From the NCBI GenBank assembly GCA_023255955.1, contig JAGDWD010000001.1:1-64000 (forward strand): a DNA stretch of 64,000 bases, in the 5' to 3' direction. The notes below the pieces were generated by a model. The model worked only from the letters and a program-made list of their open reading frames with translations. It was not told the origin of the DNA and made no database searches. The DNA is from Desulfurococcales archaeon. Lineage in GTDB: Archaea; Thermoproteota; Thermoprotei_A; Sulfolobales; NBVN01. Each line of letters starts with the position of its first letter. The first letter of the stretch is position 1. The position numbers were made by a program, and so were the translations under genes. Shown piece after piece: positions 12,134 to 63,610 of the stretch.

Positions 12134-12162
12134 CTTTTACCCCATAGGCTACTCCTCAGATT

Positions 12163-12459
12163 ACCGTTTGTCCCTAGATGCTTGTTGATGTGGGTTTATG
12201 TTTGTTCATCGCATCTAGGGACTTCCACCTCACCCACAGGGGTTTTCCCTACCCCTGTGGGTCGTGGGTGGTGTTCGTCCCGAACGGAACACGGGACACA
12301 TCTACACCTAACCCCGCAGAGCTCGGGGCACCGCCCCCATCGCTCAGCGGAGTGTTCAAGCTATTTACAGAAATGAAGTTAATAAGCTTAACACATAACC
12401 CCAGAACACAGCAACCCTAAAAACCATAAACACAACAATAAACAAAAACAGAACAGCCC
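12163..12459. repeat. Structured intergenic repeat, copy 1 (multi-hairpin; possible ncRNA)
   Basis: Homologous to 32152-32451, 61202-61440 and a degenerate copy at 19209-19320; stems GTCCCTAGATG/CATCTAGGGAC, CCCACAGGGG/CCCCTGTGGG, GGGGC/GCCCC. Confidence 0.75.
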
Positions 12460-16897: not shown

Positions 16898-18298
16898 TTA
16901 GTCTTTACGTTCGAGCTTTAGCCCTGATTCTTCTAGGATGCGCTCAACGTCTTTTGTATAGCGTAGTAGTTTGGATGGGCCTACCTCGATAAACTCCTTC
17001 TGAAGTCCTGCGTGGGCTATCATGATCCTCGTATTTGGTGTGATTTTAGTGCTTGGGTATTCCTCCTCTGGTTTTTCTTCTCTCCGCTTCTGTCTTAGTA
17101 TCTCGTTGTATCTAATCCAATTGCTGTAGCTAGCTTCTTCTAGGGCTTTCTCAAGCTGGCTGATTTCATTGCTTATTATGTAGTAGTAGGAACTATGTAT
17201 AGCGTTATATATCTCGGCAATCTCCTTAAGTTTGTCAGTAGGGGTTGGGTACTCAATACCTTGAAGTCTTCTGGTAGCTGCTTCAGCTAGTAGGGATACG
17301 TAGACTGTGTCTGGGTTTATGGTTAGAGCTCTCTCAACCACTCTATCTTTAACCTCGACCTGCTTAAGCCATAGCTCAAACACCCTCTCCAAGCTCTTAA
17401 GTGGGGACTCTACTTTACTGACTGCTGCACATAGAGCTAGTGGTAGGGGGTAGTAAAGAGTCAAGTATATTAGTCCAGCATCTTCGAGGAGCTTACGTCT
17501 AAGACTACCCACCTCGCTCTCCACCTCACTGTTCAACTTCCTTAAGCTCCTTACTGGACGTGGAAGTCTATGGACTAGCTGAATACTCTTAATCTGGTCC
17601 TCGATTATCAGGTTCAACCTAACCTCCGGGATCCCCCCAGCTCCTTCAAGCCCCGATGGAGGTCTCCTGTACGGGTCGCTGTTATAGACTCTTAACCTCA
17701 CTCCCCCTTCCCTGAGCTCCTTGTGAGCTACTAGGAGTACGCTAGCTAAGCGGTAGGCTACTCTTAGAGTTACTGAGGGCATGAAATTTAATCCGTGTGT
17801 AAGGTCTAGGATGATCTCACCGTAGCTTTCCTCAAGAACTAGCCTACCGAGCTCGTAGAGAACCACCGACTCAAAGTCCTGGGCTTCACCGCGAAATCTC
17901 CGGTTACCTCCGGGGCTTCCAACAGCTGGAGCTACAACAACTCTTACCTTAGCTTCTATTCCCAGACACCTAACTACCTCCTCTACAAACCTCCTTACAT
18001 TTTCCCTAAGCTCTATGTAGGATGCGTAGCTACTTCTAAGTATGTTCCTACAGCTCTCACAGCATATGAAGCACTCGCTCTCCTCTCTAGGCCTACCCTT
18101 AGGGCTGGGTAGGTCGACTAGACTATCGAGAACTACTAGTACAGCGTCGCAGCTCTCCCCACATAGGTACTTTAGTACTGGCTTAAGGGTGGTGCAGGTT
18201 TCGTATGTCTGCCTACCATCTTCAAGTACGTACCTAACTGTACCCCACTCTGCTGGTGAACCCCACGTAGCTATGAGGAGCCTCCTCACCTGGCTCAC
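16898..18298 (-). CDS. csx1: CRISPR-associated CARF-HEPN RNase, Csx1 family
   Basis: IILDLTHGLNFMP (DxTHG CARF motif) and C-terminal RIMIAHAG (RX4H HEPN motif). Confidence 0.85.
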   Translation of the reverse strand: MSQVRRLLIATWGSPAEWGTVRYVLEDGRQTYETCTTLKPVLKYLCGESCDAVLVVLDSLVDLPSPKGRPREESECFICCESCRNILRSSYASYIELRENVRRFVEEVVRCLGIEAKVRVVVAPAVGSPGGNRRFRGEAQDFESVVLYELGRLVLEESYGEIILDLTHGLNFMPSVTLRVAYRLASVLLVAHKELREGGVRLRVYNSDPYRRPPSGLEGAGGIPEVRLNLIIEDQIKSIQLVHRLPRPVRSLRKLNSEVESEVGSLRRKLLEDAGLIYLTLYYPLPLALCAAVSKVESPLKSLERVFELWLKQVEVKDRVVERALTINPDTVYVSLLAEAATRRLQGIEYPTPTDKLKEIAEIYNAIHSSYYYIISNEISQLEKALEEASYSNWIRYNEILRQKRREEKPEEEYPSTKITPNTRIMIAHAGLQKEFIEVGPSKLLRYTKDVERILEESGLKLERKD

Positions 18299-21586: not shown

Positions 21587-22625
21587 GGAAGTCATCACCA
21601 TGCCAGTTAAGGTATACCTGCTACTCTTTAGGAAGGGGTACCACGTAGGTTGGAGAGAGCCTAGAGAGTTAGTAGATCATACAACAGTTCTACGAGCTCT
21701 AGTCTACCTAGCCCACCTTACAGGTTCCGATAGGTGTTTCGAGTTAATTAAGGGGGGTAAACTAGAGGCTTCAGCACTTCTACCTACACTACCGATCGAC
21801 GGGAATTACGTAAGACTTCTAGCCCCATTCCCATACCTACCGTGTCTTGGCAAAGCCTCCGAGATTAGACGCCTATACCTAACCCTACCAGCACTTAGTG
21901 CCCTAGTGGAATTTGCTGATAGATGCCACAATACTGAAGGGGTCCCTGTTGTTGGAATTAGTTACGATGGTAGTATTGTTATCCAGTGCGTTAATGCTGT
22001 TAAGGAGGTTAGAGCACTAATTCTAAGACGTGTAGAGGGTATTGCGTGCCTTGATGGTGATGATTGTGCTAAGGTTAAGGACTACGCTATCCAGAGGTTC
22101 ATTGAGACTATCTCCGAGTATAGAAATAGGATAGACAGAGTAACGGGAGCTGCAGACCTCTTTACCCTCTACGGAAAGCGTCCACGTACCCCCCTATGGC
22201 TAGCACTTCACGGGGAGGAGGAAGCCCTGAAGTGTGCAGGTGAGTTACTAAAGATCCTCGAGTACACTGGGATTGGTGGATTAAGGAGTAGAGGTTGGGG
22301 GCTATTCACATTGCTAGAAGAGGTTAAGCTAAGTAGTTGGGATCAGAGTATTATTAATAAAGTTGGGTGGGCTCCAGGTTTAGTCTACCTACTTGGTACC
22401 ATGCCTCCAGGTACCTGGCTTAGGTACAAGTTCTCCTATGCTAATAGGTACGTAATTATGGGTAGAGCAGGACCTCCAACCGGCGAGTATAAGCTTCCCG
22501 TACTTGAGGTCATGGATGTAGGTTCTCTAGTCTATGTTGAGTCCATACCTAAGTCAATGATAATCCCCTTAGATGGGGGTAAAGCTGTCTACATATTCAA
22601 CCCGGTGGTACTACATGCAGGCTAA
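21579..22625 (+). CDS. csm4: Type III-A RAMP protein Csm4 (Cas5)
   Basis: YRNRIDRVTGAADLFTLYG..LLKILEYTGIGGLRSRGWGLFTL. Confidence 0.85.
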   Translation: MAEEVITMPVKVYLLLFRKGYHVGWREPRELVDHTTVLRALVYLAHLTGSDRCFELIKGGKLEASALLPTLPIDGNYVRLLAPFPYLPCLGKASEIRRLYLTLPALSALVEFADRCHNTEGVPVVGISYDGSIVIQCVNAVKEVRALILRRVEGIACLDGDDCAKVKDYAIQRFIETISEYRNRIDRVTGAADLFTLYGKRPRTPLWLALHGEEEALKCAGELLKILEYTGIGGLRSRGWGLFTLLEEVKLSSWDQSIINKVGWAPGLVYLLGTMPPGTWLRYKFSYANRYVIMGRAGPPTGEYKLPVLEVMDVGSLVYVESIPKSMIIPLDGGKAVYIFNPVVLHAG

Positions 22626-23736
22626 TGAGTTAACAGCAAGGAGCTACATTATTACCCTAAAACCGCTTACCCCTATTCATGTGTGGAGTGGTCAGAACCT
22701 AGTAGTAGGTGTAGACCTACTACACCTAGGTGGTGGGAGGTACTGCTTAGTAGATTTTGAGGGGTTATCTCAGCACATAGACGTAACTAAGGTAATTAGT
22801 ATGCGTATAGAGGAGTTACCGAAGCTTTTAGAGAGCTTAAAGGATGGGCTCCCATGTCTTCGAGAGCTTAAGGCTTACGAGGTACTACCATCAGGAACCT
22901 CTCCAACTTCTGTACAGGAGCTTAATAGGTACGTAATCCCAGGCTCAACTCTGAAAGGGTATATTAGGACAGCTATACTGTACTCACTGCTAAGTCGTAG
23001 GAATGCTAATGAAGTTAGAAAGATACTGGAGAGCGGAATAGATTTTCAGAAGGACCCCAAACATCTCTCTGAAGGGCTTGAAGCATGCTTCTTTAGAGCT
23101 CCTAGACCTAGGCGTATGGGTTTTGTAGACGCCTTCCAGTCACTTCTAGTCTCCGACCCGACTCTGGAGTTAGATCCGGACTGCTATAGGATAGCGAGGA
23201 TAGAGGTTTGTGAGCTACCTGATGGAAATACTATAGCATCGCAATATGCTGTAGTAGTGCAGTGCGGTAAGCTAACGTATAAAGTTGACGTGTTAAAGTC
23301 TCTAGAGAACGGTAGAGCTCGTATAAGCAAAGCTGCTCCAGAGCATGAAGATGATCTTAAGAAGCTTCAGCTACTTAGTCATGAGGACCTTCTAAGAGCT
23401 TTAAGGGATTTCGGTTGCTACATTCTACTAAGGGAGCTTGAGAGAGTTAGGGGCTGTAGTAAGTTGGGGGGTTATACTGCCCTACTGGAGGAGTTCTTGA
23501 AGGTATACTGTCGCGGTAGTAGTAACTGTGTGATCGCTAGAATAGGGTTTGGAGCTGGGGTGTACTCGAAGACCGTTATAGGGTTAATGAAGCAGGTTGC
23601 TCAAGACCTCTACGCCTTGGTAAAAAACGTCATGGAGATAGGACTAGGGCATACATGGGATGAGAAAACCGTCAAGCTTACGAGAACGGAGCGGGGCTCA
23701 GTTGGGCTTGGGTGGTGTGAGCTATGCTTAAGCTAG
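22573..23736 (+). CDS. csm5: Type III-A RAMP protein Csm5
   Basis: YIITLKPLTPIHVWSGQNLVVGVDLL..NRYVIPGSTLKGYIRTAILYSLL. Confidence 0.85.
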   Translation: MGVKLSTYSTRWYYMQANELTARSYIITLKPLTPIHVWSGQNLVVGVDLLHLGGGRYCLVDFEGLSQHIDVTKVISMRIEELPKLLESLKDGLPCLRELKAYEVLPSGTSPTSVQELNRYVIPGSTLKGYIRTAILYSLLSRRNANEVRKILESGIDFQKDPKHLSEGLEACFFRAPRPRRMGFVDAFQSLLVSDPTLELDPDCYRIARIEVCELPDGNTIASQYAVVVQCGKLTYKVDVLKSLENGRARISKAAPEHEDDLKKLQLLSHEDLLRALRDFGCYILLRELERVRGCSKLGGYTALLEEFLKVYCRGSSNCVIARIGFGAGVYSKTVIGLMKQVAQDLYALVKNVMEIGLGHTWDEKTVKLTRTERGSVGLGWCELCLS

Positions 23737-26700
23737 GTGGGAGTGAGGAGAGGTTACACGTATTAGGTCTCTACGCCTTGCTTCACGATGTAGGTAAGGT
23801 AACTCTAAGGTTTGCTAAACGATGCGTTGAAGGGGTAGAACCCTGCTTAAGTGAGGATGTAGCTAAAGCTGCTACTAGACTTATAGAGGAGTTCCACGGA
23901 CCTATAAACGTAATTGCTAACCGTAAGCACTGGGAGCTGTCCGACGAGTTTGTTGGGAAGATCTTAGGTAGAGCCCTGAGCTCTAGGGATAGGGAGTACG
24001 TAGATAGCGTTATAGCGAAGTGCGATAGACTTGCCGCCTCCGAGAGGGGCCTCTTCTCGGAGTCCATAGAGAGGATATGGGGAAATGTTGAGAGGAGGGT
24101 TAGTACTGGACTAGCTCTTAGGTATAGCCACGAGGTGATCCCCCTACTCTCACCTACGTGGATCCTACTGAAGACCAATTATCTTGATTATGTTGGGCTT
24201 AATGCCCTCCTTAGGAAGCAGGCTGGTAGGTGGTTAGGTAGTGAAAAGAGGGTTAAACTCTCTAAGGAGCTGTTCTACCCGATAATAAGAGCTCTAGATG
24301 AGGGCGACAGCAGTAGGTTTTCCGAACTTCTGTACTCCACCATTAGGGAGCTAGCTGACGAGGAGCTATGGCTTCCAGTAGTACCTATAACCCCTAACGA
24401 GATCTCCAACCTTAAAGCACTTAGACTTAGGGAAGCTATGGAGAGGTCGTCCTATAGTCGTGTAGTCCTACTACTCTACGCTATAGGTCGGGAGGTCTTC
24501 AATCTATTAGGTGGTAGAGTATCGAGAGGTCTTGTCGATACATTCCACAATCTACTTAAGGCTACAACCCTCCTCGTGCCCTCAGCTGTCTACTGGTCCC
24601 TGCTACCTGATATAAGCCTATACAGCCACAGTAAGCTGGTAGCAGCATACACCTACGCTCTACAGCTTAGTAGTAAGCTTAGGCTACTAACTATAGACGT
24701 AAATAGAATCCAGGACTTCATATCATCCCCAATAAGGGCTGTGGCAGCATCAAGAGTAATGAGGGGTAGGAGCCTACTTGTTGAGCTTGCACTGGACTCT
24801 CTAGTAGAATACGCTCTAACCCTCTTCGGAGGGCTTCCGTGGACTAACGTACTAATATCAGAGGGTGGTACTGCAGACCTATTAATCCCCGACCTACCTG
24901 ACCACGAGGTTAGAGTTAGTAAGTTAAGGGAGGTAGCTAGCTCCCTAGCACACTACCTCGGTAGTACTATAGGATTTACAGTAGCTTACTCGAATCCGTT
25001 TAGTGTTGAGGGGAAGTCCTTCATAGATACGGTTAAGGCTTTATCTGAAGGTAGAAGAGCAGAGACCTTCGCTGAAGTTCTTGAGAGCCTCTCCTTAAGC
25101 TTAGCTACAGTGAAGTCTAAGGTTGGGTGTAGTCCCGAGGCTATACATAGTGGTGGTGTAATAGCTCGGGAGAGTGAGGTTAGAGACTTCGATGCTATAA
25201 CGCTCGAACCAGTCTTAGAGGGGGAAAAGGACCTCTACAAGCTTACGGTAACTGAGGATAGCAAGGCTTACGCTGACTCCCTAGCTCCCGGGAAGCTACT
25301 GGTTGGGGAATCTATATCGACACCGACGCATCTAAGTCTTGTAGCCGGTTCTATAGCTAGGGAGCTTACTGCAGTAGTATCAGTACACCTGTATAGGTTT
25401 GTGGATAATCTTATTGAACCAGATCGAGATGGCATAATAGTTCTTAAGGAGATGGTTTCAAGGGTTTGTAGAGGTGGGGAGCTACTCTGTACTTACGCAA
25501 GGAAGGGTTGGGAGTTTAGGGTATCTCTAATACCTCTACCTGATGTAGGTGCTCTACATATTCTAGTAGCAACACCAAGTCGTGAAGAACCCTACAATCC
25601 TGAGAACCCAGAACTACTTGCACGGATTTACGAAGCTCTTCAAGTTGTACTCGAAGATATTGAGTCAGCGCTTAGCAGAGTGCTAAAGGAGGGTAGCTAC
25701 TCTAGAATTAGGATTTCACTAGTTAATGCACCCCATGCGTTTATAGCTGTAGAGGAGCTGAAGCTACTCTACGGTAACGAGAAGTTTGCTGAAGCTTCCC
25801 TAGTCTATAGGGACCTTAGGAAGTCCATACTTAAACTAACCACAGCGGGGGTTGATGTATCCCTAGGATACATTTTCACCAACTCCTACCACCCAGCTCA
25901 GCTAGCTATTACTAAGGAGGGGGAGGTTAAGGGATTTAGACTGGTTGACCTAGATGAGTACGGAATAATAGCAGTAGCTAAAATGGATATAGATCTCTTT
26001 GGTGAGGTTAGATCCCTCTACTCCATATCCCCTAGTAGGCTAGTAACCCTCTCAGACCTAGTTAATTTTGTAGTAGCTGGTAAAGCATACCTAAAAGCAC
26101 TCGAGCTAGCGAGAAGGTTACGAAGTAGGTACTACAATGTAGATGTAATACCCCTCTATGCGGGAGGTGACGATATAACTGTTTACGGTAAGTGGAGCCA
26201 CGTCGTTAAGTATGTAGCTGAGCTCTACAAGGAGGTTAGGTCTGTACTCAAGCCCCTAACTTTCTCCCTAGCTATAGCATTAGGTGACTGCAATATGCCT
26301 ATACTCCTACTCTACAGAGATACTACTAGCTTACTTAAGGAGTACGCAAAGGAGGTGAAGGCCTCCTGCGTTCTAGGAGCACCCACTTCAGTTCTGTATG
26401 TAGAACCGCAGCAGGCTAAGCCTGTAGTTAGCTATGTGGTACCTCTGGAGAGACCCTCTAAGTACTACCCGTGGGTAGACGATCTAAAGGCTCTCTGGAA
26501 CCTACAGCTCCTAGCGGAGCTAGTAGATCCTGTAGCTTATATCGAGGGTTCAGGTACTTTGACGAAGCTGGAGGAATTAAAGAGGGAGCTTCACATCCTA
26601 TCTAGGATAGCCTACGAGTATGGTAGGTTAGTTAGTGAGGAGGTTAGAAGTGGGGGGAGAGCTATTGAGGGGGTAGTCCCGATAGAAATTCTATACGCTT

Positions 26701-26942
26701 ACGTGTGGAGCCGTAGAAGAGAGTCTCTTAGCGAGTTAAAGAAAATCCTAGAGGAGAATGTAGAAACCGAGAACAGAGGTCTTAAACTACTTGCTTACCC
26801 AGATGATATAGTAAGTAAGATTACCGTGGAGGAGGCACTGAAGGTGTTACTAGCATCTAAATCTATTGTTGACCTAGTGTTACTGGCTCTAAGAAGACTT
26901 GATACCGTAGAGCCTTCAAAACTTATAATCACCTACAGCTAG
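23724..26942 (+). CDS. cas10: Cas10/Csm1 with HD and GGDD palm domain
   Basis: LHDVGKVTLRFAKRC (HD), IPLYAGGDDITVYGKW (GGDD). Confidence 0.93.
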   Translation: MLKLGGSEERLHVLGLYALLHDVGKVTLRFAKRCVEGVEPCLSEDVAKAATRLIEEFHGPINVIANRKHWELSDEFVGKILGRALSSRDREYVDSVIAKCDRLAASERGLFSESIERIWGNVERRVSTGLALRYSHEVIPLLSPTWILLKTNYLDYVGLNALLRKQAGRWLGSEKRVKLSKELFYPIIRALDEGDSSRFSELLYSTIRELADEELWLPVVPITPNEISNLKALRLREAMERSSYSRVVLLLYAIGREVFNLLGGRVSRGLVDTFHNLLKATTLLVPSAVYWSLLPDISLYSHSKLVAAYTYALQLSSKLRLLTIDVNRIQDFISSPIRAVAASRVMRGRSLLVELALDSLVEYALTLFGGLPWTNVLISEGGTADLLIPDLPDHEVRVSKLREVASSLAHYLGSTIGFTVAYSNPFSVEGKSFIDTVKALSEGRRAETFAEVLESLSLSLATVKSKVGCSPEAIHSGGVIARESEVRDFDAITLEPVLEGEKDLYKLTVTEDSKAYADSLAPGKLLVGESISTPTHLSLVAGSIARELTAVVSVHLYRFVDNLIEPDRDGIIVLKEMVSRVCRGGELLCTYARKGWEFRVSLIPLPDVGALHILVATPSREEPYNPENPELLARIYEALQVVLEDIESALSRVLKEGSYSRIRISLVNAPHAFIAVEELKLLYGNEKFAEASLVYRDLRKSILKLTTAGVDVSLGYIFTNSYHPAQLAITKEGEVKGFRLVDLDEYGIIAVAKMDIDLFGEVRSLYSISPSRLVTLSDLVNFVVAGKAYLKALELARRLRSRYYNVDVIPLYAGGDDITVYGKWSHVVKYVAELYKEVRSVLKPLTFSLAIALGDCNMPILLLYRDTTSLLKEYAKEVKASCVLGAPTSVLYVEPQQAKPVVSYVVPLERPSKYYPWVDDLKALWNLQLLAELVDPVAYIEGSGTLTKLEELKRELHILSRIAYEYGRLVSEEVRSGGRAIEGVVPIEILYAYVWSRRRESLSELKKILEENVETENRGLKLLAYPDDIVSKITVEEALKVLLASKSIVDLVLLALRRLDTVEPSKLIITYS

Positions 26943-27089
26943 GTCTACTCCTACTTTAAGAAAGAGCGTTGGAGATTTCTTAGCTTAGTAAGTATTTAAT
27001 GCGATGTGGGGAGTCAACTAATAAAACTAAAGTGTTTGAAGTTTAAATACTTATTAGTTTTTAAAGTCACTTAATTCAATGTCTTAATG

Positions 27090-27557
27090 TTTTCGGTTAG
27101 CTACGTCGAGATTCATAATGCGGGTATGCCTGTTAGGTTGGTTTTGTTCCGGATCTTCCTGGTAGGGATATTATTGAGAAGAAATTCTGTAGGTTTAGGT
27201 TGGACTGGATTAGGAGGTTACTAACGTACGAACCTAGAGGTTCCTCAAATTCCTACGGTGCTCTAATTACTGAGCCCTTGAGACCTGGTGCTAGCTTTGG
27301 TGCTCTATTTTTGACCCTAGTGGTCGGCACAATATGTGTGGTCATGTATCGATGGGTTTTGCTTCTATGCTGTTAGAGCCTGCTTGGTGAGCCTACTGGC
27401 TGAAGTTGCGGTACCTCTGGATACACTTGCTGGTTTAGTTATTAGAGTTGAAGTAACTGGTCAAAGCCCTAGGAGGGTTAGGATGGTTAATGTATCCTCC
27501 TATGTATTTCGTGAGCTAGTTACCGAGGTTACAGGCTATGGACGAACCCCTCATTAG
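27090..27557 (+). pseudogene. Decayed CDS downstream of cas10, possibly Cas6/RAMP-like
   Basis: MFSVSYVEIHNAGMPVRLVLFRIF / KKFCRFRLDWIRRLLTYEPRGSSNSYGALITEPLRPGASFGALFLTLVV / VPLDTLAGLVIRVEV in alternating frames; position next to array. Confidence 0.3.
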
Positions 27558-27595
27558 ATGTGGTGAACTCCTAGAAAGTGTTTAAATAAAATTGA

Positions 27596-30500
27596 CTTTC
27601 AATCAATTCTATCGTTCGAACCCAGGTACGGAAAAAGATAGTCTTCGGCCCCGTTAGGGTGACTGAAATACTTTCAATTCTATCTTTTAGATTCTCTACA
27701 TTAGAGCTTTAACACCTGTACACGTAGGTATTGGTCGCTTTCAATTCTATCTTTTAGATTCTAATAAAATACTGAATTTAATATACAAGCTACATGAGAA
27801 AGTCCTTTCAATTCTATCTTTTAGATTCTTGATGTTAACGACCCGATTGTAGACAAGATTGTCGAGCTGGTCTTTCAATTCTATCTTTTAGATTCTCGTA
27901 CAGGACCAGACCGGGAGAGTTAGAGGAAAGGAACTATATGCTTTCAATTCTATCTTTTAGATTCGCCCGGAAGGTCTTCGACTACTACAGCAAGATGGTC
28001 GAGTTCAAGGTCTTTCAATTCTATCTTTTAGATTCCGATGGGTAGCATAGTCGTTAACGTATCAACAGCTACACCATCTCCCTTTCAATTCTATCTTTTA
28101 GATTCACTACGGACGGGAAACTCCTACTCTCGCTAGGGTAGCCTTTCAATTCTATCTTTTAGATTCCTGAGTGGTAGAAATTTCTTCTATAGAATTATTG
28201 GATTTCTACCTTTCAATTCTATCTTTTAGATTCCACAATATATCTCAATGCGAAGGCAAAGCAAGACTTCTCTGACATACTTTCAATTCTATCTTTTAGA
28301 TTCCTAGGACGACGAAGTACCAAGTAGACCACATATATAAAAACTTTCAATTCTATCTTTTAGATTCCAGTAGTGATAAATGAGCCCGCCCCCGCATTGA
28401 TTAACTTTCAATTCTATCTTTTAGATTCAACTTTTACTATCAAGAGAAATAGCAGAAAAACTCAGAGAGCTCTTTCAATTCTATCTTTTAGATTCATTCC
28501 AGAAGAAAATGCCATTTCTGATATATATCGCTGAGAATGACACTTTCAATTCTATCTTTTAGATTCCGGGAGGTTCCAAAAGAGAGTAAAGCAGCCATCT
28601 AACGTTGATCTTTCAATTCTATCTTTTAGATTCAGCGGTACCTCCCGTTAGTAGGGAGGTGATGTTCTAAGATGAATACTTTCAATTCTATCTTTTAGAT
28701 TCTTTAAGTATGGAGGGGCGACTATACCAGCAAACACAGACCTCTTTCAATTCTATCTTTTAGATTCAGTAGAAGTAGATGGCTAGCCAGTACTCAACAC
28801 CTACGGGGACCATCTTTCAATTCTATCTTTTAGATTCACGACTACATCTTCACTATTCACTTAGCGAGCAAGGAGTTCCCTTTCAATTCTATCTTTAGAT
28901 TCACCATCCTGATCATAGGCACCTCCCTCAGGAGGGAGGAGATCGCTTTCAATTCTATCTTTTAGATTCAGAGGAGTAGTGTACGTACTACTCTAGTTAG
29001 TTTATTCAAGCGCCTTTCAATTCTATCTTTTAGATTCGTCTCACCCACGCAGGTAGGAAATACTTTACTATACGAGACACACTTTCAATTCTATCTTTTA
29101 GATTCCCTACCAGCTTTACTTATTTGCTGACTTAGCAGAATTCCCTAACTTTCAATTCTATCTTTTAGATTCTGGAGGAACACTGAAGTATATCATGGCT
29201 CAACAATAATAATTGACTTTCAATTCTATCTTTTAGATTCTACTAACTACAGCTATAATACCCCCCAGCAGTCCCTCGCGTTTTACTTTCAATTCTATCT
29301 TTTAGATTCGTGAGGCACTCACCGAGGAGGGCCCTCAGAATACCGTACACAGTCACTTTCAATTCTATCTTTTAGATTCAAACCGTCGCCTCGAAAATCT
29401 GTGTACCGTTACCATAGAACCACTTTCAATTCTATCTTTTAGATTCAGAATTTCAAGTGTCTTTAACACCCCTCTCGGTAGAATACTCATCTTTCAATTC
29501 TATCTTTTAGATTCAGATTCGTAGCTCTATCCCATGGTGAAGTTTTTTCACGTTCTATGCTCTTTCAATTCTATCTTTTAGATTCGCCTACCACCACGGC
29601 TAGGGCTACCTGCAGCAGTATCCATGCTACTTTCAATTCTATCTTTTAGATTCACAGTCAGCAAATTAGTGAGAACTATCACGGTGGTAATGCTTTCAAT
29701 TCTATCTTTTAGATTCTCGATATTCCTATACCTCGGTTCTAGCGTGGTGATTGTACCTTTCAATTCTATCTTTTAGATTCGCTGATACTCATTAACTTGG
29801 TGTTCTGAATGCTTTTCATGTCCTTTCAATTCTATCTTTTAGATTCAGCTTCCTGAACTGTGCCATGTAGTTCCTTCCTTTCTCGGTTACTTTCAATTCT
29901 ATCTTTTAGATTCAGCCAGCTTCGTGGACACATCACCTAAGCTCACCATAGTCTCTTTCAATTCTATCTTTTAGATTCTCGCGATAGATGCGTTCATGGG
30001 CGTGCTCCAGGCTAACCTACCTTTCAATTCTATCTTTTAGATTCATAAGGGGTTCATTGATGACGTGAGGTCCAGGTTCGCTACTTTCAATTCTATCTTT
30101 TAGATTCCTAAACTCCTCGTTGATGTCGCTGACCACCTCATTAAGGCTTTCAATTCTATCTTTTAGATTCCTACCCTCATAATCCCACCAGCTTACTCCT
30201 TTGTCTATTGCCTTTCAATTCTATCTTTTAGATTCGAACGGAATATATCCGCTAGTTGTAGTAGTAGATAACACGATCTTTCAATTCTATCTTTTAGATT
30301 CACGTGACTGTGAGCCTCATCCCGGGCTTCGCCTACGCTGTGAGCCTTTCAATTCTATCTTTTAGATTCTATCCCTACTTTATGAAGCTTTCTGTAGCCC
30401 GCTAAATAACTTTCAATTCTATCTTTTAGATTCGATAGCGTAAAAAACACATACTTCTTACGTAAACACGTCTTTCAATTCTATCTTTTAGATTCGCGAG

Positions 30501-30823
30501 CTATTCACGCAGAATGTCCAAGTCATTATTATCTTTCAATTCTATCTTTTAGATTCACCCCGCATGATTATCCCGATGCTTATCCCCATAGATTTATCTT
30601 TCAATTCTATCTTTTAGATTCATGTGAAGAATGCTGATGCGATAGTGTTCATAGAGATATCGAATAGCCTTTCAATTCTATCTTTTAGATTCGTCATCTC
30701 CTCTGCGAAGTTGTATAATGCAGCACCTATCGCCTCTTTCAATTCTATCTTTTAGATTCCATTGATAAAGGGGAGAGCGGGGCGAAGCCGTTCAAGGAGC
30801 TTTCAATTCTATCTTTTAGATTC
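27596..30823 (-). CRISPR. CRISPR array 1: 24-nt repeat CTTTCAATTCTATCTTTTAGATTC (+ strand; transcript GAATCTAAAAGATAGAATTGAAAG), ~48 clear repeats plus one degenerate distal repeat
   Basis: Direct reading of repeats from 27671 to 30800 with spacers ~36-46 nt; degenerate unit at 27596; leader on right. Confidence 0.98.
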
Positions 30824-31030
30824 TGTGTCGTGGGCCTACATCTCTATCTATCAGATTCAGATCCAAGTATTATTTGTGTCTAGATATTTAAGCTTTTCCT
30901 CCGGGTTGGGTTGTGAGCTCCCTAGAGTATTTTTAAGTGGGGTCCACGAAGCCTCCCAACCCAGTCTATACATCAAGATCCTATGGTGGACATAGGAAAA
31001 CTTAAGGTATCTAGCTATAGAATGGTTCTT
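30824..31030 (-). promoter_or_regulatory. CRISPR leader, array 1
   Basis: Nearly identical to sequence adjoining array 2 (43883-44065); minus-strand TATA-like GGAAAAGCTTAAATAT ~60 bp from first repeat. Confidence 0.85.
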
Positions 31031-31240: not shown

Positions 31241-32122
31241 TTGTTGGGGTTAGCTTTGGTTGGGGTTTTCGTGGTGTCTACTGTGGGTACGTCTTTGTTT
31301 AGGAATATCTCGAGGTCTCGGGATTATTTGGAGGTGGTTGGTAGGTACGGTGTTGAGAGGTGGGTTGACATGTCCTTGGATTCTCCTGATAATAGCTATC
31401 CTTTGGGTAGGGTCTGCGGGCTTTCTGGGGATGGGTACCTGGTTAACGCGTTCGTGGATTTCATACGTTCGGATCCTAGGGCTTCCTGTGCTGAGCTTGC
31501 TGGTGTCCTGGCTGTTGTTGAGGATGTTTGGGCTAGGTATGGTAAGGTACCTATTGAGGTGGGTCTCTACCCTACGGCTAGCTGTACGTCCTACCTAGCC
31601 TCGAGGATTCTTGAGAGGTACTTGGTGTCTGGGGGGTTTAAGGTGTCTGTCAGGGTTGTCGAGGCTATCAGGTCTGTAGAGGGGTTTGATGAGGGGTTGG
31701 CATCGCTTGTGGATCAGGTTATTGGTGACGTTGTTGACTACTCGAGGAGGGGGTTTAAGGTCTACGTAAACGCGACGCCCGGGTTTAAGGCTGAGACCTC
31801 CTTCCTCGTTATAGCCTCCATACTAGCCGGGGCATCAGCTATCTACTACATACACGAAAGCTTTAGGAGGCCTGTTAAGCTACCTATAGTACCCCTAGAA
31901 GTACGTAGGGACTACCTCAGCTTGCTGGAGTCCATAGCTAGGGAGGGGGGTGTGGAGCTAGCGTACGTGTACAGCACTCTAGGCATGACGGAGGCGGACG
32001 TGAAGGACCTTGAGGACAGGTACCTAGCTTACTCAGATGAGGCTAGGCTCAAGCCTAGGAAGTGGGTTGTGAAGCTACTTGAGAAACTGAGGTGGTTGCG
32101 GGAACCTGAGGAGGGGCTCTAA
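31241..32122 (+). CDS. CRISPR-associated CARF protein, APE2256/TIGR02619 family (Crn1-type ring nuclease candidate)
   Basis: FIRSDPRASCAELAGVLAVVEDVWARYG..YVNATPGFKAETSFLVIASILAGASAIYYIHESFRRPVKLPIVPL. Confidence 0.82.
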   Translation: MLGLALVGVFVVSTVGTSLFRNISRSRDYLEVVGRYGVERWVDMSLDSPDNSYPLGRVCGLSGDGYLVNAFVDFIRSDPRASCAELAGVLAVVEDVWARYGKVPIEVGLYPTASCTSYLASRILERYLVSGGFKVSVRVVEAIRSVEGFDEGLASLVDQVIGDVVDYSRRGFKVYVNATPGFKAETSFLVIASILAGASAIYYIHESFRRPVKLPIVPLEVRRDYLSLLESIAREGGVELAYVYSTLGMTEADVKDLEDRYLAYSDEARLKPRKWVVKLLEKLRWLREPEEGL

Positions 32123-32151
32123 CTGCTGTCACTACCAGCCCTACCTGCTCG

Positions 32152-32451
32152 ACCGTTTGTCCCTAGATGCTCGTTGACGTGGGTTTATGTTCGTTCATCA
32201 CATCTAGGGACTTCCACCTCGCTCACAGGGTCTTGGGTATCCCTGCGGGTCATGGGTGGCTGTCGAGCCCAACGGCACAGGGTCCCCATCTACACCTAAC
32301 CCCGCAGAGCTCGGAGCACTGCTCCCATCACTCAGCAGGGTATCCAAGCTACTTATAGGAATGGAGTTAATGAGCTTAACGCATAACCCCAGAACACAGC
32401 AACCCTAAAAACCATAAACACGACATCCACTAATCAAAAACAGAACAGCCC
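32152..32451. repeat. Structured intergenic repeat, copy 2
   Basis: ~300-bp homology to 12163-12459 including terminal aaccctaaaaaccataaacac. Confidence 0.8.
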
Positions 32452-32542: not shown

Positions 32543-34195
32543 TTACTCCAGGCACTTCTTCGCGATCTCGCTGATGTTCTCTAGGTAGAGTACTCTAGTT
32601 ATCGTGACCTCCCCACCCTGCCTAACTATGGAGAAGCTCCTAACTAGGCTGTACTCTAAGCCTGCGTGTGCTGCTAGGTTCCTGCACACCCTGCTGACGT
32701 CCATGTCCCTACCCATCTCCTTGATTCTCATCACGTCCTTCACCTCATTTTCATGTATCTCAAGTACCTTACTGATACTCTCCACGCACTCACCCCTACT
32801 CTCGTTGAAGTACCTGTACAGAAGTACGTTCACATCGACCTCACTACCCGATCTTAAGGACTCCTCGATGTTCTCCGGCACTACACTGTAACTCCTCAGG
32901 AGCTTACCGCATTTCCTTACGTACTCCTCCAGGTTCTTAATGAAGCTGTTTAGGTTCTCGTTCTCTCTTTTTACCATGAGGCTCACAGCCTTATATCCTC
33001 TCTTGTCGAGGGCTTTGCGCGCTCCCTCCAGGAACTCAGCTAGGTTGTTAGGGCTCCGCAGCTCTCCGCAGATGTCTTTGAGTACCTTAGTCAGGGAGTA
33101 CCTAGTTAGGGTAGTCCACATACTCGTCTTTCCATAGTCCACGACCTTGGAGTCACGGTCTATGTTGGGTATGTAGCTAAACTCAGCTGGATCCAGCTCC
33201 CTCTCGTACCTACTCAACTCCTCACATACGTTGAAGCCTAGTTTAACGCGGTTCTCCGTGTCGGGGCCCGGCAACATGTAGGATTCTGGGTACGCTAGAG
33301 CAGCCATACCGTTCCTAACTAGGTTGAGGAAAGTCACCGCTCTATCGATTAGGTTGAGAACGTCTTCTGGGACTGCTTCACCACCCCGCTTCTTCAGGTC
33401 CTTGTGGACCTCCTTCACGGGCTCTGTATCGAAGTTCTTTAGTGACATGAGGCCCCTAATGAACGATATACCGTACTGTAACTGACTCACATCAGCTACC
33501 TCCACTACTGGTACTTCCCCGACTTGCCCCGATGCTACCTGGGCAGTACCCCCACCCCTAGTTGCCGGGGCTGGTGACTGCACCGGCATACTGTTCAGTA
33601 TGACCACCCTACCCTCCTTCCCGAAGAGGATGGCCGCGGCAATAGTTGCGTAGAGAGTCGCTACTACCTGGTAGTTCACACCGTGGGTTAGGTCCATGAA
33701 GACCCACTTAAACTCCTCCCCCGGCCTCCCCAATCTCGCGTAGAGGTCTATGAAGACCTTGTTGAATATGTGTTCGATGGAAGCACCGAACCTGTAGCCG
33801 TGGTAGAGGCCTAGACCGGGCACCACAACAATATCCACCCTACCTAGGAGACTACCCGAGAACCCCGAACAACACGAACACCCCCTCACCATCTCCTCGA
33901 AGAACCCTAGGTAGAGTTCCTGAGCCCTCCTACGTAGCTCCACCCCACCACCGACCTCACCAGGATTCACAATAGTGTCCGCTCCGTAGATCACTACATC
34001 GACATCGTAACCCCACCCGAGAAGCGCCGCAGCAATAGCTACCGTCGAGCTCCTAGCCCTACAAACAACAGGATGAAACTCCTCGAAAGCCCTATGCTTA
34101 ACAGAAACCCAGTACTCAACCTCCCTCCAACCAGCCGGTAAACCCCATGAAGCCACTAAAAGAACCCTACCACCCACGAACGAAACCCCAAACAA
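32543..34195 (-). CDS. csx1: CRISPR-associated CARF-HEPN RNase, Csx1 family (second copy)
   Basis: WVFMDLTHGVNYQVVATLYATIAAAI (DxTHG), CRNLAAHAGLEYSLV (RX4H HEPN). Confidence 0.85.
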   Translation of the reverse strand: MFGVSFVGGRVLLVASWGLPAGWREVEYWVSVKHRAFEEFHPVVCRARSSTVAIAAALLGWGYDVDVVIYGADTIVNPGEVGGGVELRRRAQELYLGFFEEMVRGCSCCSGFSGSLLGRVDIVVVPGLGLYHGYRFGASIEHIFNKVFIDLYARLGRPGEEFKWVFMDLTHGVNYQVVATLYATIAAAILFGKEGRVVILNSMPVQSPAPATRGGGTAQVASGQVGEVPVVEVADVSQLQYGISFIRGLMSLKNFDTEPVKEVHKDLKKRGGEAVPEDVLNLIDRAVTFLNLVRNGMAALAYPESYMLPGPDTENRVKLGFNVCEELSRYERELDPAEFSYIPNIDRDSKVVDYGKTSMWTTLTRYSLTKVLKDICGELRSPNNLAEFLEGARKALDKRGYKAVSLMVKRENENLNSFIKNLEEYVRKCGKLLRSYSVVPENIEESLRSGSEVDVNVLLYRYFNESRGECVESISKVLEIHENEVKDVMRIKEMGRDMDVSRVCRNLAAHAGLEYSLVRSFSIVRQGGEVTITRVLYLENISEIAKKCLE

Positions 34196-57893: not shown

Positions 57894-58790
57894 ATGTCTA
57901 GGCAAACGATGTCAGTAGCTATAGTGATTCCAACTTATAACGAAGTCGAAAATATAGGCATTCTGCTTGGGGAGATAAAAAAGAATGTTCCCACAGATGT
58001 TGATTATGAGATAGTGGTTGTCGATGATAATAGCCCTGATGGTACATGGAAAAAGGCTGTTGAACTGCTTGAAAATAACATATTTGTTGTTAGAAGGATT
58101 GGTTTAAAAGGTCTTTCAACGGCTGTTATAGATGGCATAATTTTTTCTTCTAAGGACTATGCGCTTGTGCTCGATGCCGATTTGCAGCACCCACCAGAGT
58201 ATATAAAAGATATGATTTTCGAGGCGCAGAAAACCAATGTTGATGTCGTAATCGGCTCAAGGTATACCAAGGGTGGGGGTGTTGCTGGTTGGTCAAAAAC
58301 AAGGCTACTAATATCTAAGACGGCAACACTTATAGCGAAGCTGTTTCTGCCATCGGTACGAAGGATATCCGACCCGATGTCAGGTTTCTTCATGGTTAAG
58401 AGGAGAATTGTTTTAGAGAATCTATCGAAGTTAAACCCATATGGCTTCAAAATCCTTCTAGATGCGATACTGGATAGCATTGATTATGCGGAGGTTCTCT
58501 ACGATGGTGCTGGTTTCGAAGCCCCGCGGCTATTTACTAGACTTCCCCAGAATTTCAGAACATTTAATTCTTTGAAGAACTCATTGAAGAGGGGCCGTAA
58601 GGATGTTAAAGGCCTATTTAGAGTAACCCCAGTAGGTCTGTGCTTATTTACTCTAGCGAAAAGAGGTGATAAAAGTGATGATGTTCCGTATGTTGATATA
58701 TGTAGAGAGTTCGTATACAATGTCGAGATGTCCTTAATTCACGAAGAAATCGAAGTGGATAACGTTTGGGGTGTCAGAGGGTATGAGTAG
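57894..58790 (+). CDS. GT2 dolichyl-phosphate-mannose-synthase-like N-terminus fused to unrelated C-terminus (chimeric ORF)
   Basis: IPTYNEVENIGILL..VVVDDNSPDGTW..VLDADLQHPPEYI..SDPMSGFFMVKR..NPYGFKILLDAIL then no DPMS homology. Confidence 0.7.
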   Translation: MSRQTMSVAIVIPTYNEVENIGILLGEIKKNVPTDVDYEIVVVDDNSPDGTWKKAVELLENNIFVVRRIGLKGLSTAVIDGIIFSSKDYALVLDADLQHPPEYIKDMIFEAQKTNVDVVIGSRYTKGGGVAGWSKTRLLISKTATLIAKLFLPSVRRISDPMSGFFMVKRRIVLENLSKLNPYGFKILLDAILDSIDYAEVLYDGAGFEAPRLFTRLPQNFRTFNSLKNSLKRGRKDVKGLFRVTPVGLCLFTLAKRGDKSDDVPYVDICREFVYNVEMSLIHEEIEVDNVWGVRGYE

Positions 58791-61137
58791 TAGAGGCTAC
58801 GTCCTGGAAGCCTATAAACTCAGTTTCAGATTCCGAGAGAGTAAGGTACACACAGTCACCGTTCCCAAGGTAATTCTCCAACCATTACTAAACTTCCTGT
58901 TCATATCCGGAATTACCCACTCAAAACCGATGAAGCTACCTAATGAATCACTTTACCTAATTTACATAGTTGGTGATAACGATACTATCAACAGGGTTAA
59001 GGACTTTATAAAAGAGCATGACCCTAAGTCAGAGTTACCTGTCAATATGGGTGGTGGAGGCTCGGTAAGTAGTCTCGATGATAGCATCAAAGGTGACATG
59101 GCTTATAGAGCTGTTAGGCAGTACATCTACAGGAGGCTCGGGTTTAGAAGAGGTTCCGGGCAAAAACTCTACGATATTAGCAAGATTGTGCAAAGCCACG
59201 ACAATATCCTCAACGTCTTTCAAGCCTATGTAGTGAGTCACGACGTTATTAGTAACTCTAGCTACGTGTTCGTAGACGCAGCAAGGAAACTCGAATTCGC
59301 GGCTACCCTCAGAGATTTGGAGACGAAAGGTAAGCTAGGTACATCATCCAAGATTCAATGGGTTAAGATAAGGGACTCCACAGTTTCGTTCTACATCGAA
59401 CCCGATATTGATTTCAAGAAGTTTGGCCGCTCTAGTGATAAGGTAGTCAATACCTTAAAGTACATTGTTAAGTCGAGGTACATACCTCTAGACATCGATA
59501 AAATCGATAGTAGTGATGTCGTGGCTTTAACACCTAAAAGCGCTGGGCTTAGACTTGAGCTTCATAGAAAAGGCTATACTGTAACTATCGGTGATAAAGA
59601 AGTTGTCTTCCTACCTAAAAATGTATTAGTACCTGTAGCGTCTATGGATAACGTGTCCACTCTTCTTCAAGAATACATCACGCTAAAGTTCGGGCCGACC
59701 ACTCGTCATAAAGAGGTCTACGATCTTGTGCGGAAGCTTAGTTCAGACATAGAGATCGGAAATGTCTCCATAGCTCTAGACCCTCATCCACTAGAAATAA
59801 AGACTGGGAAAGTACCCCCAAATGAGCTCTACATAGATCTTAAAGACTCCGGAAACCAGGATACTGAAAAAGTTACGTTCGACTGGAGCCCCTACGAACT
59901 TCTGAAGAAGATCGTAGATAAGCTCCTTATCTACGTACTTTACAGTAAAGGTGATAAGGATAGCTATAGAGCTGCGGATCTCATTCGACGGGAACTACAT
60001 AAGAACCTGGATGTTATGCCTCAAATGCTTGAGATAGATTTTGGAGATGTTTATGTGCGAGACTCTAGAAAGATCGAGAGGCAATTAGAGTACATAACTG
60101 AAACAGCTAAGGGCGTAAACTGTGCTGTGCTAGTTATTGGTCCAGGTAGTATAGATGCTAGAGAGGATCGCGATCTCAGAAATAAAGTCGAGAAGGTGTT
60201 CAGGTTTAGAGGTTTGTTCTGCTGGTACATATCAATCACATCAATTATTCCTAAGCGTAGAGAGGAAGAGAGGAAGTTTAGGAATGTGCTCTCGAGGAAG
60301 CTTCTTGTAGTAATGAAGGAGCTAGCTATAAGGTTGCAACTGTTTTCGCATAAGCTTCAACCACTACAGCTATCAAAGATTGATGGTGGTACAGACGTTT
60401 TTGACGCTATAGCGGCAGCAGATGCGACTGTTATAGGTATGGAGAGAAGTCAGCTAAGAATTGGGGCTGTACTAATACTTATGAATTTAAGTAGAGGTAG
60501 CTATACGATTGAGACAGATACTTATGAGATAAATGAAAGTGGAGAGGACCCTACGTTGGCTAAAACGATCAAGAAAGCCTTGGAACAACTACAAGATACG
60601 AAGCTGATAATATACGTCAACAGAGCTAGACCTGAAGCACTTCTCAACTATCTTCAAGAAGATGAAGTTAGAGAACTCTTAAATAACGCAGTAATAGTTG
60701 GGGCTACAAAGACCCACACCTACTCAAGAATACTCAAGAAAGTAAATGACGTCTCATTCAGCAATCCAGAGCTGACAACGTATTACCAACTTTATACCAG
60801 AGACTTAAAAGAGTTGAGAAATGCGAGAGCAAAGATCTCAAGATACCTAGCGATAACAACTACAGCACAATTCGAAGTTGGAGAAAGATTAACGGTTAAA
60901 CCAACACTGCTATCAATCATCTTGAATAAGGATATCTGGAGATCCGAGAACATAGACAAGGTACTAAAGTACACGCTGACTCTATGTACACTAAACAACA
61001 CCACCACGTGGGTACACTCACTTCCGTGGCCTCTCCACAGGGTAGACAGAATACTCAAGAACGCCCACAGATTAGCCGAAGATAGAAACGATTTCATCAA
61101 AGCGCTCGAAGATAAAGATATAGTTAAAACACTCTAA
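58771..61137 (+). CDS. Divergent long prokaryotic Argonaute (PIWI domain), probably catalytically inactive
   Basis: VIGMERSQLRIGAVLILMNLSRGSYTIET; KLIIYVNRARPE..VIVGATKTHTYSRI; C-terminus LTLCTLNNTTTWVHSLPWPLHRVDRILKNAHRLAE typical of pAgo C-terminus. Confidence 0.7.
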   Translation: MSEGMSSRGYVLEAYKLSFRFRESKVHTVTVPKVILQPLLNFLFISGITHSKPMKLPNESLYLIYIVGDNDTINRVKDFIKEHDPKSELPVNMGGGGSVSSLDDSIKGDMAYRAVRQYIYRRLGFRRGSGQKLYDISKIVQSHDNILNVFQAYVVSHDVISNSSYVFVDAARKLEFAATLRDLETKGKLGTSSKIQWVKIRDSTVSFYIEPDIDFKKFGRSSDKVVNTLKYIVKSRYIPLDIDKIDSSDVVALTPKSAGLRLELHRKGYTVTIGDKEVVFLPKNVLVPVASMDNVSTLLQEYITLKFGPTTRHKEVYDLVRKLSSDIEIGNVSIALDPHPLEIKTGKVPPNELYIDLKDSGNQDTEKVTFDWSPYELLKKIVDKLLIYVLYSKGDKDSYRAADLIRRELHKNLDVMPQMLEIDFGDVYVRDSRKIERQLEYITETAKGVNCAVLVIGPGSIDAREDRDLRNKVEKVFRFRGLFCWYISITSIIPKRREEERKFRNVLSRKLLVVMKELAIRLQLFSHKLQPLQLSKIDGGTDVFDAIAAADATVIGMERSQLRIGAVLILMNLSRGSYTIETDTYEINESGEDPTLAKTIKKALEQLQDTKLIIYVNRARPEALLNYLQEDEVRELLNNAVIVGATKTHTYSRILKKVNDVSFSNPELTTYYQLYTRDLKELRNARAKISRYLAITTTAQFEVGERLTVKPTLLSIILNKDIWRSENIDKVLKYTLTLCTLNNTTTWVHSLPWPLHRVDRILKNAHRLAEDRNDFIKALEDKDIVKTL

Positions 61138-61201
61138 AGCAATACTGCTGGTAGGGCTTCTCGACCTAGTAGTAATTACCTCTTCGGCACTTAACCTTAT
61201 C

Positions 61202-61440
61202 ACCGTTTGTCCCTAGAGGGTCATTTCCATTACTTCAGGGTTGTTTGGCCTCCTCTAGGGACTTCCACCTCGCTCACAGGGGTTTTCCCTACCCCTGTGG
61301 GTCGTGGGTGGCTGTCGAGCCCAACGGCACGGGGCTCCCATCTACGTACAGCCCTAGGGAGCTCGGAGCATTGCTCCCATCACCCCTTAGAGCTTACACC
61401 CCCGACACAACCCTAATAAACTTTTCAGCCCACTCATAGT
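61202..61440. repeat. Structured intergenic repeat, copy 3
   Basis: Homology to 12163-12459; stem GTCCCTAGAGG/CCTCTAGGGAC and GGAGC/GCTCC. Confidence 0.75.
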
Positions 61441-61744: not shown

Positions 61745-63610
61745 ATGAGTAGTTTAAGTCTCTCTGATAAAGTTTTGATTTTAGAAGGGAGTTATGAAAA
61801 CTTTAAGACATCGCTATGTAAAGCACTTGAAACGGACAGATTTCTATGGGGTTTTAAGCATAAGAAAGATTACAATAAGGTTTTAAAAAGAGAAAATAGA
61901 GATTCACCAGTGGTCTTCTACATCCCTGAGAAAGAGGGTTCTGTTATCGGGAGGTGTTTTGTTAAGATGATTGCAAAAGTAGGTGAAGAAGTAAAAGATA
62001 AAGAACTTAGAGAGCTCTTTTGGCCAGACGAAATTAGAGCCAATAAAATAATATATCCATATAGATTTTACTTAGTGCCAGTGAAGACCTCAGAAAAACT
62101 ACCCGATATTTGTACCGGAGCTGAGCCACCAGAAGAGATTTTTATTAAATTAGATGATATAGAAAAGTATATCGAAGAAAAATGTGGAAGCAAGAAGCAA
62201 ATTCCAGTAGGGTGGTCTGCTAATACCCTGCAAGGATGTGAAGCCCGTAAACTCCTTGAATACTTAGAGCAGAACTTCACACTGGCTGATTTCAAATACA
62301 CACTTAAGAATCTCCTTGGGAGAATAAGGCCTTTCAGAAATAAATCCGGGGAATTGAAGTTTAGAGGAGACGAGGTATCTATTATTTTACTTAGTTTGTT
62401 TAGTGGTAAGAACGTCTTGTTGGTTGGTCCTCCTGGTTCTGGTAAAACTAGTTTATTGAGGGAGTTGCTCGACGGGCTTGGAGTAAGTTATAGATTGGTA
62501 ACCGGTAATCCTGAGTGGACTCCTTTTGACACTATTGGTGGTATGTTAGTTGGAGGGGGTGTGAGGAAGGGGTTTATATTTAGTACAATAGAGGAAAGCG
62601 TGAGAGTGTTTAGGGAGGACGGAAGATTACATTGGCTTATTCTCGATGAGATTAACCGTGCCAATGTGGACTTAGCGTTCGGTAAGTTCTTCACTCTGCT
62701 AGATCCTGTATATAGGGAGAAGGAGAAACTGGAAATACCGGGTGTTGAAGGTGGAGAGAGTAGTACGGTAGTCCCCTTCTCATTTAGAGTATTGGCTACT
62801 ATGAACAGCTATGACAGAGCAATGCTATTTAAACTAGGATACGCGCTGACAAGGAGGTTTGCTATTATAAGCCACATCTACCTTGAAGACCTATCCACGT
62901 ACTGTAATAACTACGTTAAGAAAGCTTCGGAGGAAAACACTTTAAGAGAGTTAGTCAAGTACTCTGAGACGATTAAAGACCTTCTCCACGTAGACTTCGA
63001 GAAGATAAGAGAAGAACTAGTTAAGTGTAGAGAAGTTAAGCACGGGGAATATACTCGACACGATTGTATAACACCGGTAGACTTCGCAGAGAAAATAAAG
63101 GGGTATGGTGATAAATGGGTTGAAGAAGTATTTTCTCTCAAAGTCTCGGAGACAGAGATTAAACTCGATAGAATTCTACTCGAACTTGTAGAGGAACTAA
63201 ATAGCGAGCTAGCTAATTACGAAGACTGCGAGATATGCCCGGTTCAAATAACACCTGGCGTTGTAGCAGATGCTTTGAAATACATAGCCGTAGGTATCTA
63301 CGCGTATAAACAGGGATATGGCAAACTAGAATGCCTAGCCAGTACGTCAAACGATAAACAGACACTCGCGTACGCACTCCTACTACTAGACACAGCTTTC
63401 TCCACTTACATCCTGCCACAACTGGATATATTGGCAGACTATGCCCATAGAGAGAAACTCTATCGAGGGAGGCCAGGAGCAGCTGGACAGTCTGAAGGGA
63501 ATAGCATTGAAGATATACTGAGAAGCATCAACGAGAAGTTGAAGAAGGCGGGGTTGATATACTCAGCTAAACTAGTTGAAAAGCTAGTGAAGGGGTACCA
63601 TGTCTTCTAA
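61745..63610 (+). CDS. EVE/PUA-like domain fused to McrB-type AAA+ NTPase
   Basis: N-term RFLWGFKHKKDYNKVL..DSPVVFYIPEKEGSVIGRCFVKM..LFWPDEIRANKIIYPYRFYLVPV; GPPGSGKTSLLREL, LILDEINRANVDLAFGKFFTLLD, VLATMNSYDRAMLFKLGYALTRRFA. Confidence 0.82.
   Translation: MSSLSLSDKVLILEGSYENFKTSLCKALETDRFLWGFKHKKDYNKVLKRENRDSPVVFYIPEKEGSVIGRCFVKMIAKVGEEVKDKELRELFWPDEIRANKIIYPYRFYLVPVKTSEKLPDICTGAEPPEEIFIKLDDIEKYIEEKCGSKKQIPVGWSANTLQGCEARKLLEYLEQNFTLADFKYTLKNLLGRIRPFRNKSGELKFRGDEVSIILLSLFSGKNVLLVGPPGSGKTSLLRELLDGLGVSYRLVTGNPEWTPFDTIGGMLVGGGVRKGFIFSTIEESVRVFREDGRLHWLILDEINRANVDLAFGKFFTLLDPVYREKEKLEIPGVEGGESSTVVPFSFRVLATMNSYDRAMLFKLGYALTRRFAIISHIYLEDLSTYCNNYVKKASEENTLRELVKYSETIKDLLHVDFEKIREELVKCREVKHGEYTRHDCITPVDFAEKIKGYGDKWVEEVFSLKVSETEIKLDRILLELVEELNSELANYEDCEICPVQITPGVVADALKYIAVGIYAYKQGYGKLECLASTSNDKQTLAYALLLLDTAFSTYILPQLDILADYAHREKLYRGRPGAAGQSEGNSIEDILRSINEKLKKAGLIYSAKLVEKLVKGYHVF

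Follow-up and report, generated by a model that had tools for sequence, protein, structure and literature searches.

Repeated element copies in a 64-kb window

The window, the whole 64-kb stretch of DNA analysed here, carries a Type III-A-like CRISPR locus (22573-30900), with Csm5-like and Cas10-like proteins encoded at 22573-26942 and an array of ~49 repeats (repeat CTTTCAATTCTATCTTTTAGATTC) from position 27671. Three CARF proteins are encoded at 16898-18298, 31241-32122 and 32543-34195, two of them Csx1-like and one of the Cas_APE2256/Csm6-like (ring-nuclease-type) family. The same window harbours four copies of a short repeated element. Two of the three CARF proteins flank copy 2, while copy 3 lies just downstream of a 788-aa protein (58771-61137) that gave no Pfam or PADLOC match, and upstream of an AAA_5 (McrB-like) ATPase (61745-63610); the CARF/Csx1 and McrB-like neighbours named in a preliminary description of this DNA are genuine. 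The copies were scored with a covariance model (R1) built from the element family itself, and their features are as follows.

12164-12459, minus strand: copy 1, complete subfamily A mini-element (296 nt; ends fixed in the all-copy alignment), running in minus-strand sense from the left end GGGCTGTTCTG... at 12459 to the right end ...ACAAACGG at 12164
12164-12353, minus strand: omega-RNA scaffold of copy 1, six helices (model R1, 198 bits; structure and pair counts)
12144-12163, minus strand: predicted guide of copy 1, TAATCTGAGGAGTAGCCTAT, the first 20 nt beyond the right end, by analogy with known TnpB RNAs
32153-32451, minus strand: copy 2, complete subfamily A mini-element (299 nt)
32153-32341, minus strand: omega-RNA scaffold of copy 2 (model R1, 203 bits)
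32133-32152, minus strand: predicted guide of copy 2, TCGAGCAGGTAGGGCTGGTA
61203-61431, minus strand: copy 3, complete subfamily B mini-element; its left end, GGGCTGAAAAGTTTATTAGGG, is shared with the intact IS607 element of contig C2
61203-61393, minus strand: omega-RNA scaffold of copy 3 (model R1, 192 bits)
61183-61202, minus strand: predicted guide of copy 3, TGATAAGGTTAAGTGCCGAA
19209-19296, minus strand: copy 4, internally deleted, with a decayed omega-RNA remnant (model R1, 30 bits; alignment)

All matches to the covariance model in the 64-kb window fall on the minus strand. The four copies are where the preliminary description had placed them, and the stems it quoted are present and perfect in copy 1. 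Its start at 12163 was one base early, the A at that position being flank: on the plus strand the element begins with CCGTTTG... at 12164, and ends with ...AACAGCCC at 12459. The figure of four copies holds for the window and is an undercount for the genome (1.64 Mb, 13 contigs), where we found 53 covariance-model matches (E <= 0.01; 37 above 150 bits) and, by sequence search, 48 DNA matches to copy 1, ~22 of them nearly full length and mostly at 81-87% identity. With four of the 53 matches lying within 64 of 1,639 kb, where ~2 are expected, the window's copies form no cluster and their density is unremarkable.

Alignment of the copies reveals abrupt common ends and unrelated flanks. Read in minus-strand sense, each element runs from a left end (GGGC...) through a ~190-nt structured RNA to the right end (...ACAAACGG). 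GGG opens all 30 copies with a recognisable left end, and CGG closes 34 of 38 right ends. No fixed motif was found in the flanks outside the element ends, no target-site duplication was present in any flank pair seen, and the sequence past the right end differs in every copy. A search for a TAM motif in 30 left flanks yielded nothing beyond GG and a weak T/G at -1. Two subfamilies have the ~190-nt 3' part in common and differ in their left ends: subfamily A, to which window copies 1 and 2 belong and which has 22 full-length copies, starts GGGCTGTTCTGTTTTTGATT, and subfamily B (window copy 3, L027, L030, L135 and L136) starts with GGGC, three variable or near-fixed bases and AAAAGTTTATTAGGG.

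The element is short (~300 nt), multi-copy and without an ORF. It is MITE-like and not a strict MITE, because its ends (GGGCTG... and ...AAACGG) form no inverted repeat of useful length and target-site duplications were not seen. A MITE with such duplications was the contrary reading named in the preliminary description; its MITE-like part agrees with our data, and the absence of duplications is normal for IS607 transposons, which target GG and have neither target-site duplications nor terminal inverted repeats (PMC6188088). One insertion could be compared with its empty site: copy L016 sits within a CaiB-like gene, split in this genome between ...RGWSIV and PKFDMEKKPRIWRG..., whose orthologue is uninterrupted in four relatives. 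At this one site there is no duplication, and the spacing is two bases shorter than in the orthologue if one GG is kept, a shortfall that may represent later drift.

Many copies have a gene within 100 nt. The first few copies hinted at a preference for gene 3' ends, which is unsupported across the genome, since copy orientations relative to the neighbouring genes are even (8/6/6/6). A link to the neighbouring defence genes is likewise unsupported, the copies being scattered genome-wide with this same even orientation to flanking genes. A search for the element in viral_contigs with two exact patterns gave no match.

Structure and strand of the RNA

RNAalifold applied to 50 sequences yielded six helices with 42 pairs, 27 of which show at least one double-sided change. 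By direct count, 95.5% of cells are paired. Shuffled alignments reach 84.8%, and shifting the partners by 1-3 columns leaves no more than 46%; over the shifted versions the structure has an advantage, having been taken from the same alignment. Double-sided changes occupy 199 cells vs 51 in shuffles; these are pairing counts rather than R-scape statistics, and relatedness inflates the contrast with shuffles. The pairing is strongly supported by compensatory changes, in agreement with the earlier proposal of a structured RNA family. No relevant Rfam match to the family was obtained at the gathering threshold, nor at a permissive E <= 10, and this includes RAGATH-18.

On the minus strand G-U outnumbers A-C (107 vs 51 cells) among 39 mostly Watson-Crick pairs. 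The excess is significant when counted over cells and not significant over pair positions (20 vs 12). The functional strand is most likely the minus strand, for which the linkage to tnpB described below is a stronger argument than the G-U bias. In two copies, L004 and L011, helix 3 joins arms of unlike sequence type (GTCCCG/GAGCTC and GGGCCC/CGGGAC) and pairing is lost; such chimaeras suggest recombination, gene conversion or exchange between copies.

Parent IS607 transposons and tnpB linkage

Family searches showed that the element's own genome encodes serine recombinases of IS607 type as well as TnpB proteins. Contig C2 carries an intact-looking IS607 element with the order TnpA, TnpB, family RNA and family right end, and a left end (GGGACAGAAAGTTTATTAGGGTC) of the subfamily B type. 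Its TnpA (218 aa) matches the IS607 transposase model NF033518 above the cut-off (E 1.7e-71) and has Resolvase and helix-turn-helix domains. The TnpB frame (437 aa) matches PF07282 and TIGR01766, and matches the curated TnpB model NF040570 at E 2.3e-22, which is under that model's cut-off; the likely catalytic residues, judged by eye, are present (DVNENN, LEKL, RDVTACWN). A second IS607 TnpA, with a left end (GGGCTGTTCTGTTTTTGGTTAGTG) of the subfamily A type, runs off the end of contig C10, and contig C3 begins within a tnpB that terminates in the family RNA. The two may represent a single element that the assembly has divided.

Some copies extend upstream of the RNA into the coding frame of the TnpB C-terminal zinc ribbon, on the minus strand (VYVDPRNTSKVCPVHK...RDVVACWN). 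The earlier statement that no ORF is conserved therefore stands for the mini-elements and not for their full-length relatives, in which the tnpB frame enters the RNA on the minus strand. At L161 (2880-3237) the intact element's TnpB frame stays open through nearly the whole omega-RNA and stops ~14 nt short of the right end. L163 (1085-1165; contig C1, ~52.1 kb) holds the remains of an IS607 element whose TnpB frame is broken, and a right-end-like fragment, TGTTTGTCCCTA...TATCTAGGGACCTCCACC, lies in or beside its tnpA remnant.

Of 214 genomes from the order, 126 gave a covariance-model match to the family RNA; in a phylum-wide sample of 300, which also covered the order, 66 did. Among the 30 best loci fetched (L194-L223; one locus per genome), tblastn placed an IS607 TnpB directly upstream of the RNA in 26, and an IS607 TnpA match was also present at 19. 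Wherever the TnpB match reaches query residue 360, the gap from that residue to the RNA is 51 nt. A further 40 loci, from seven genomes, included 25 without an IS607 TnpB in the fetched stretch; at one more, L257, the TnpB is part of an adjacent element on the opposite strand. More than one genus thus has orphan copies, several genera being represented in this sample chosen among high-scoring matches. In one relative with a single-contig genome, G110, seven of nine copies (L224-L232) are orphans.

Origin, possible use in trans and known systems

The element is very probably a non-autonomous, MITE-like IS607 derivative, formed by internal deletion with loss of tnpA and tnpB, that carries an omega-RNA, the guide RNA of the Cas12-related DNA-cutting enzyme TnpB; this RNA might be used in trans. 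Both ends are retained, and with them the complete omega-RNA scaffold. This reading rests on the fixed ends with GG on both sides and the lack of a visible target-site duplication, on IS607 elements of the same genome that share ends and RNA, on the tnpB directly upstream in most of the best loci, and on the strong covariation. Two features expected of an omega-RNA are present, namely a tnpB directly upstream or overlapping on the same strand and a conserved scaffold followed by variable sequence past the right end. In place of the intergenic plus-strand ncRNA gene first proposed, the element thus appears to be the omega-RNA part of an IS607 transposon, read on the minus strand in a protein-less mini-element.

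We postulate that the mini-elements are mobilised by TnpA from intact IS607 copies, through recombination at GG. An orphan copy, if transcribed on the minus strand, would yield an omega-RNA with neighbouring host DNA as its 3' guide. By analogy with characterised TnpBs (PMC11061315, PMC10640517, PMC8612924), TnpB would bind the RNA and use the 3' extension beyond the right end as guide. TnpB made elsewhere in the genome could then take up orphan RNAs in trans and cleave a sister chromosome at the site that lacks the element, whereupon repair would copy the element back; such a cycle may help dozens of protein-less copies to persist. Retention of the whole scaffold in dozens of such copies fits use in trans. 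Tentatively, as a quite possible rather than a probable outcome, we propose a shared guide-RNA economy in which one or a few TnpB genes per cell serve ~30-40 orphan omega-RNAs, each of them directed to the empty site of its own copy; the mini-elements would thereby home and persist collectively, an arrangement that would have arisen repeatedly across the order.

A serious possibility, if also short of probable, is that the origin is the same and the orphan copies are passive, the RNA being kept through overlap with right-end DNA needed by TnpA, or through descent from functional parents, with no guide use in trans. The private-substitution comparison gave no sign of slower stem evolution in single copies after insertion (0.20 substitutions per column in stems vs 0.17 in the left-end region), helix 3 is broken in some copies, and the compensatory changes may all date from tnpB-linked parents. 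Passive carriage accounts less readily for the complete 190-nt scaffold kept in nearly all full-length copies, beyond the need of short transposon ends. Pair-keeping private stem changes (8 of 15 vs 3.0 expected without transition bias) also speak against it, but this excess weakens under transition bias and is suggestive only.

Other readings part from an IS607 guide RNA altogether or from its role in transposon maintenance. Nuclease-dead TnpB-like regulators are known elsewhere, and the many copies close to genes would suit host adoption of some orphans as guides for gene control; we consider this very unlikely, given that the C2 TnpB has its likely catalytic residues (by eye) and that the guides are mere local flanks, different in each copy. 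An IS200/IS605-type (Y1 transposase) mini-element, comparable to the bacterial palindrome-associated elements, might be entertained from the subterminal hairpins and from the Y1-type transposases with their own TnpB in this genome. It is exceedingly unlikely and largely refuted: the 30 left flanks hold no conserved target motif, the parents encode a serine recombinase, and the family RNA is unattached to the Y1 element on contig C9, the one Y1 element read. Scarcely credible, and again largely refuted, is a stand-alone family of plus-strand structured ncRNA genes, perhaps regulating their neighbours, to which the strong covariation and intergenic positions had pointed, but which is at odds with the fixed ends and their transposon-type left ends, with parents that encode TnpA and TnpB, with the random orientation of copies to genes and with a G-U bias on the other strand.

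Under the IS607 derivation, an apparent archaeal ncRNA family becomes a defined IS607 TnpB guide-RNA family with a covariance model. Amplified orphan guides beside an intact TnpB would allow a direct test of TnpB maintaining non-autonomous elements in trans, and the scaffold could supply heat-stable IS607 TnpB nucleases with a matching guide. The component parts (IS607 transposons, TnpB guide RNAs and mini-elements) are of known kinds; within largely open-access literature, the archaeal IS607 omega-RNA family, its structure and the amplification of orphan copies appear to be new. Orphan omega-RNA elements occur in bacteria as IS605 PATEs and stand-alone HEARO/IscB RNAs, which are likewise protein-less and keep a transposon guide RNA, although they belong to other transposon families.

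With IS607 transposons (PMC6188088) our elements share a parental serine-recombinase TnpA with N-terminal helix-turn-helix, TnpB, GG ends and the lack of inverted repeats and of visible target-site duplications, whereas the window copies are without both genes and only ends and RNA are left. In bacterial IS607 systems TnpB works with RNAs derived from RAGATH-18, which have a 187-nt scaffold, and the TAMs are G-rich (PMC11061315). Those reRNAs resemble the present family in being ~190-nt structured RNAs at the 3' end of an IS607 tnpB with the guide past the right end; the present family, by contrast, is archaeal, lacks an Rfam match at the permissive threshold and consists mostly of orphan copies. 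The Sulfolobus islandicus SisTnpB1 omega-RNA likewise comes from the 3' end of an archaeal tnpB, whose product it guides, although it is of IS200/IS605 type, with an AT-rich TAM, and was described with two hairpins (PMC10640517). In Staphylothermus marinus, 14-copy MITEs of ~260 nt linked to IS607 were reported in 2009, no guide RNA being recognised in them (PMC2678158). Though reported with inverted repeats, before the omega-RNA era, and likened here by description only, they share with our elements the character of protein-less, IS607-tied repeats in the same archaeal order, some of them interrupting genes.
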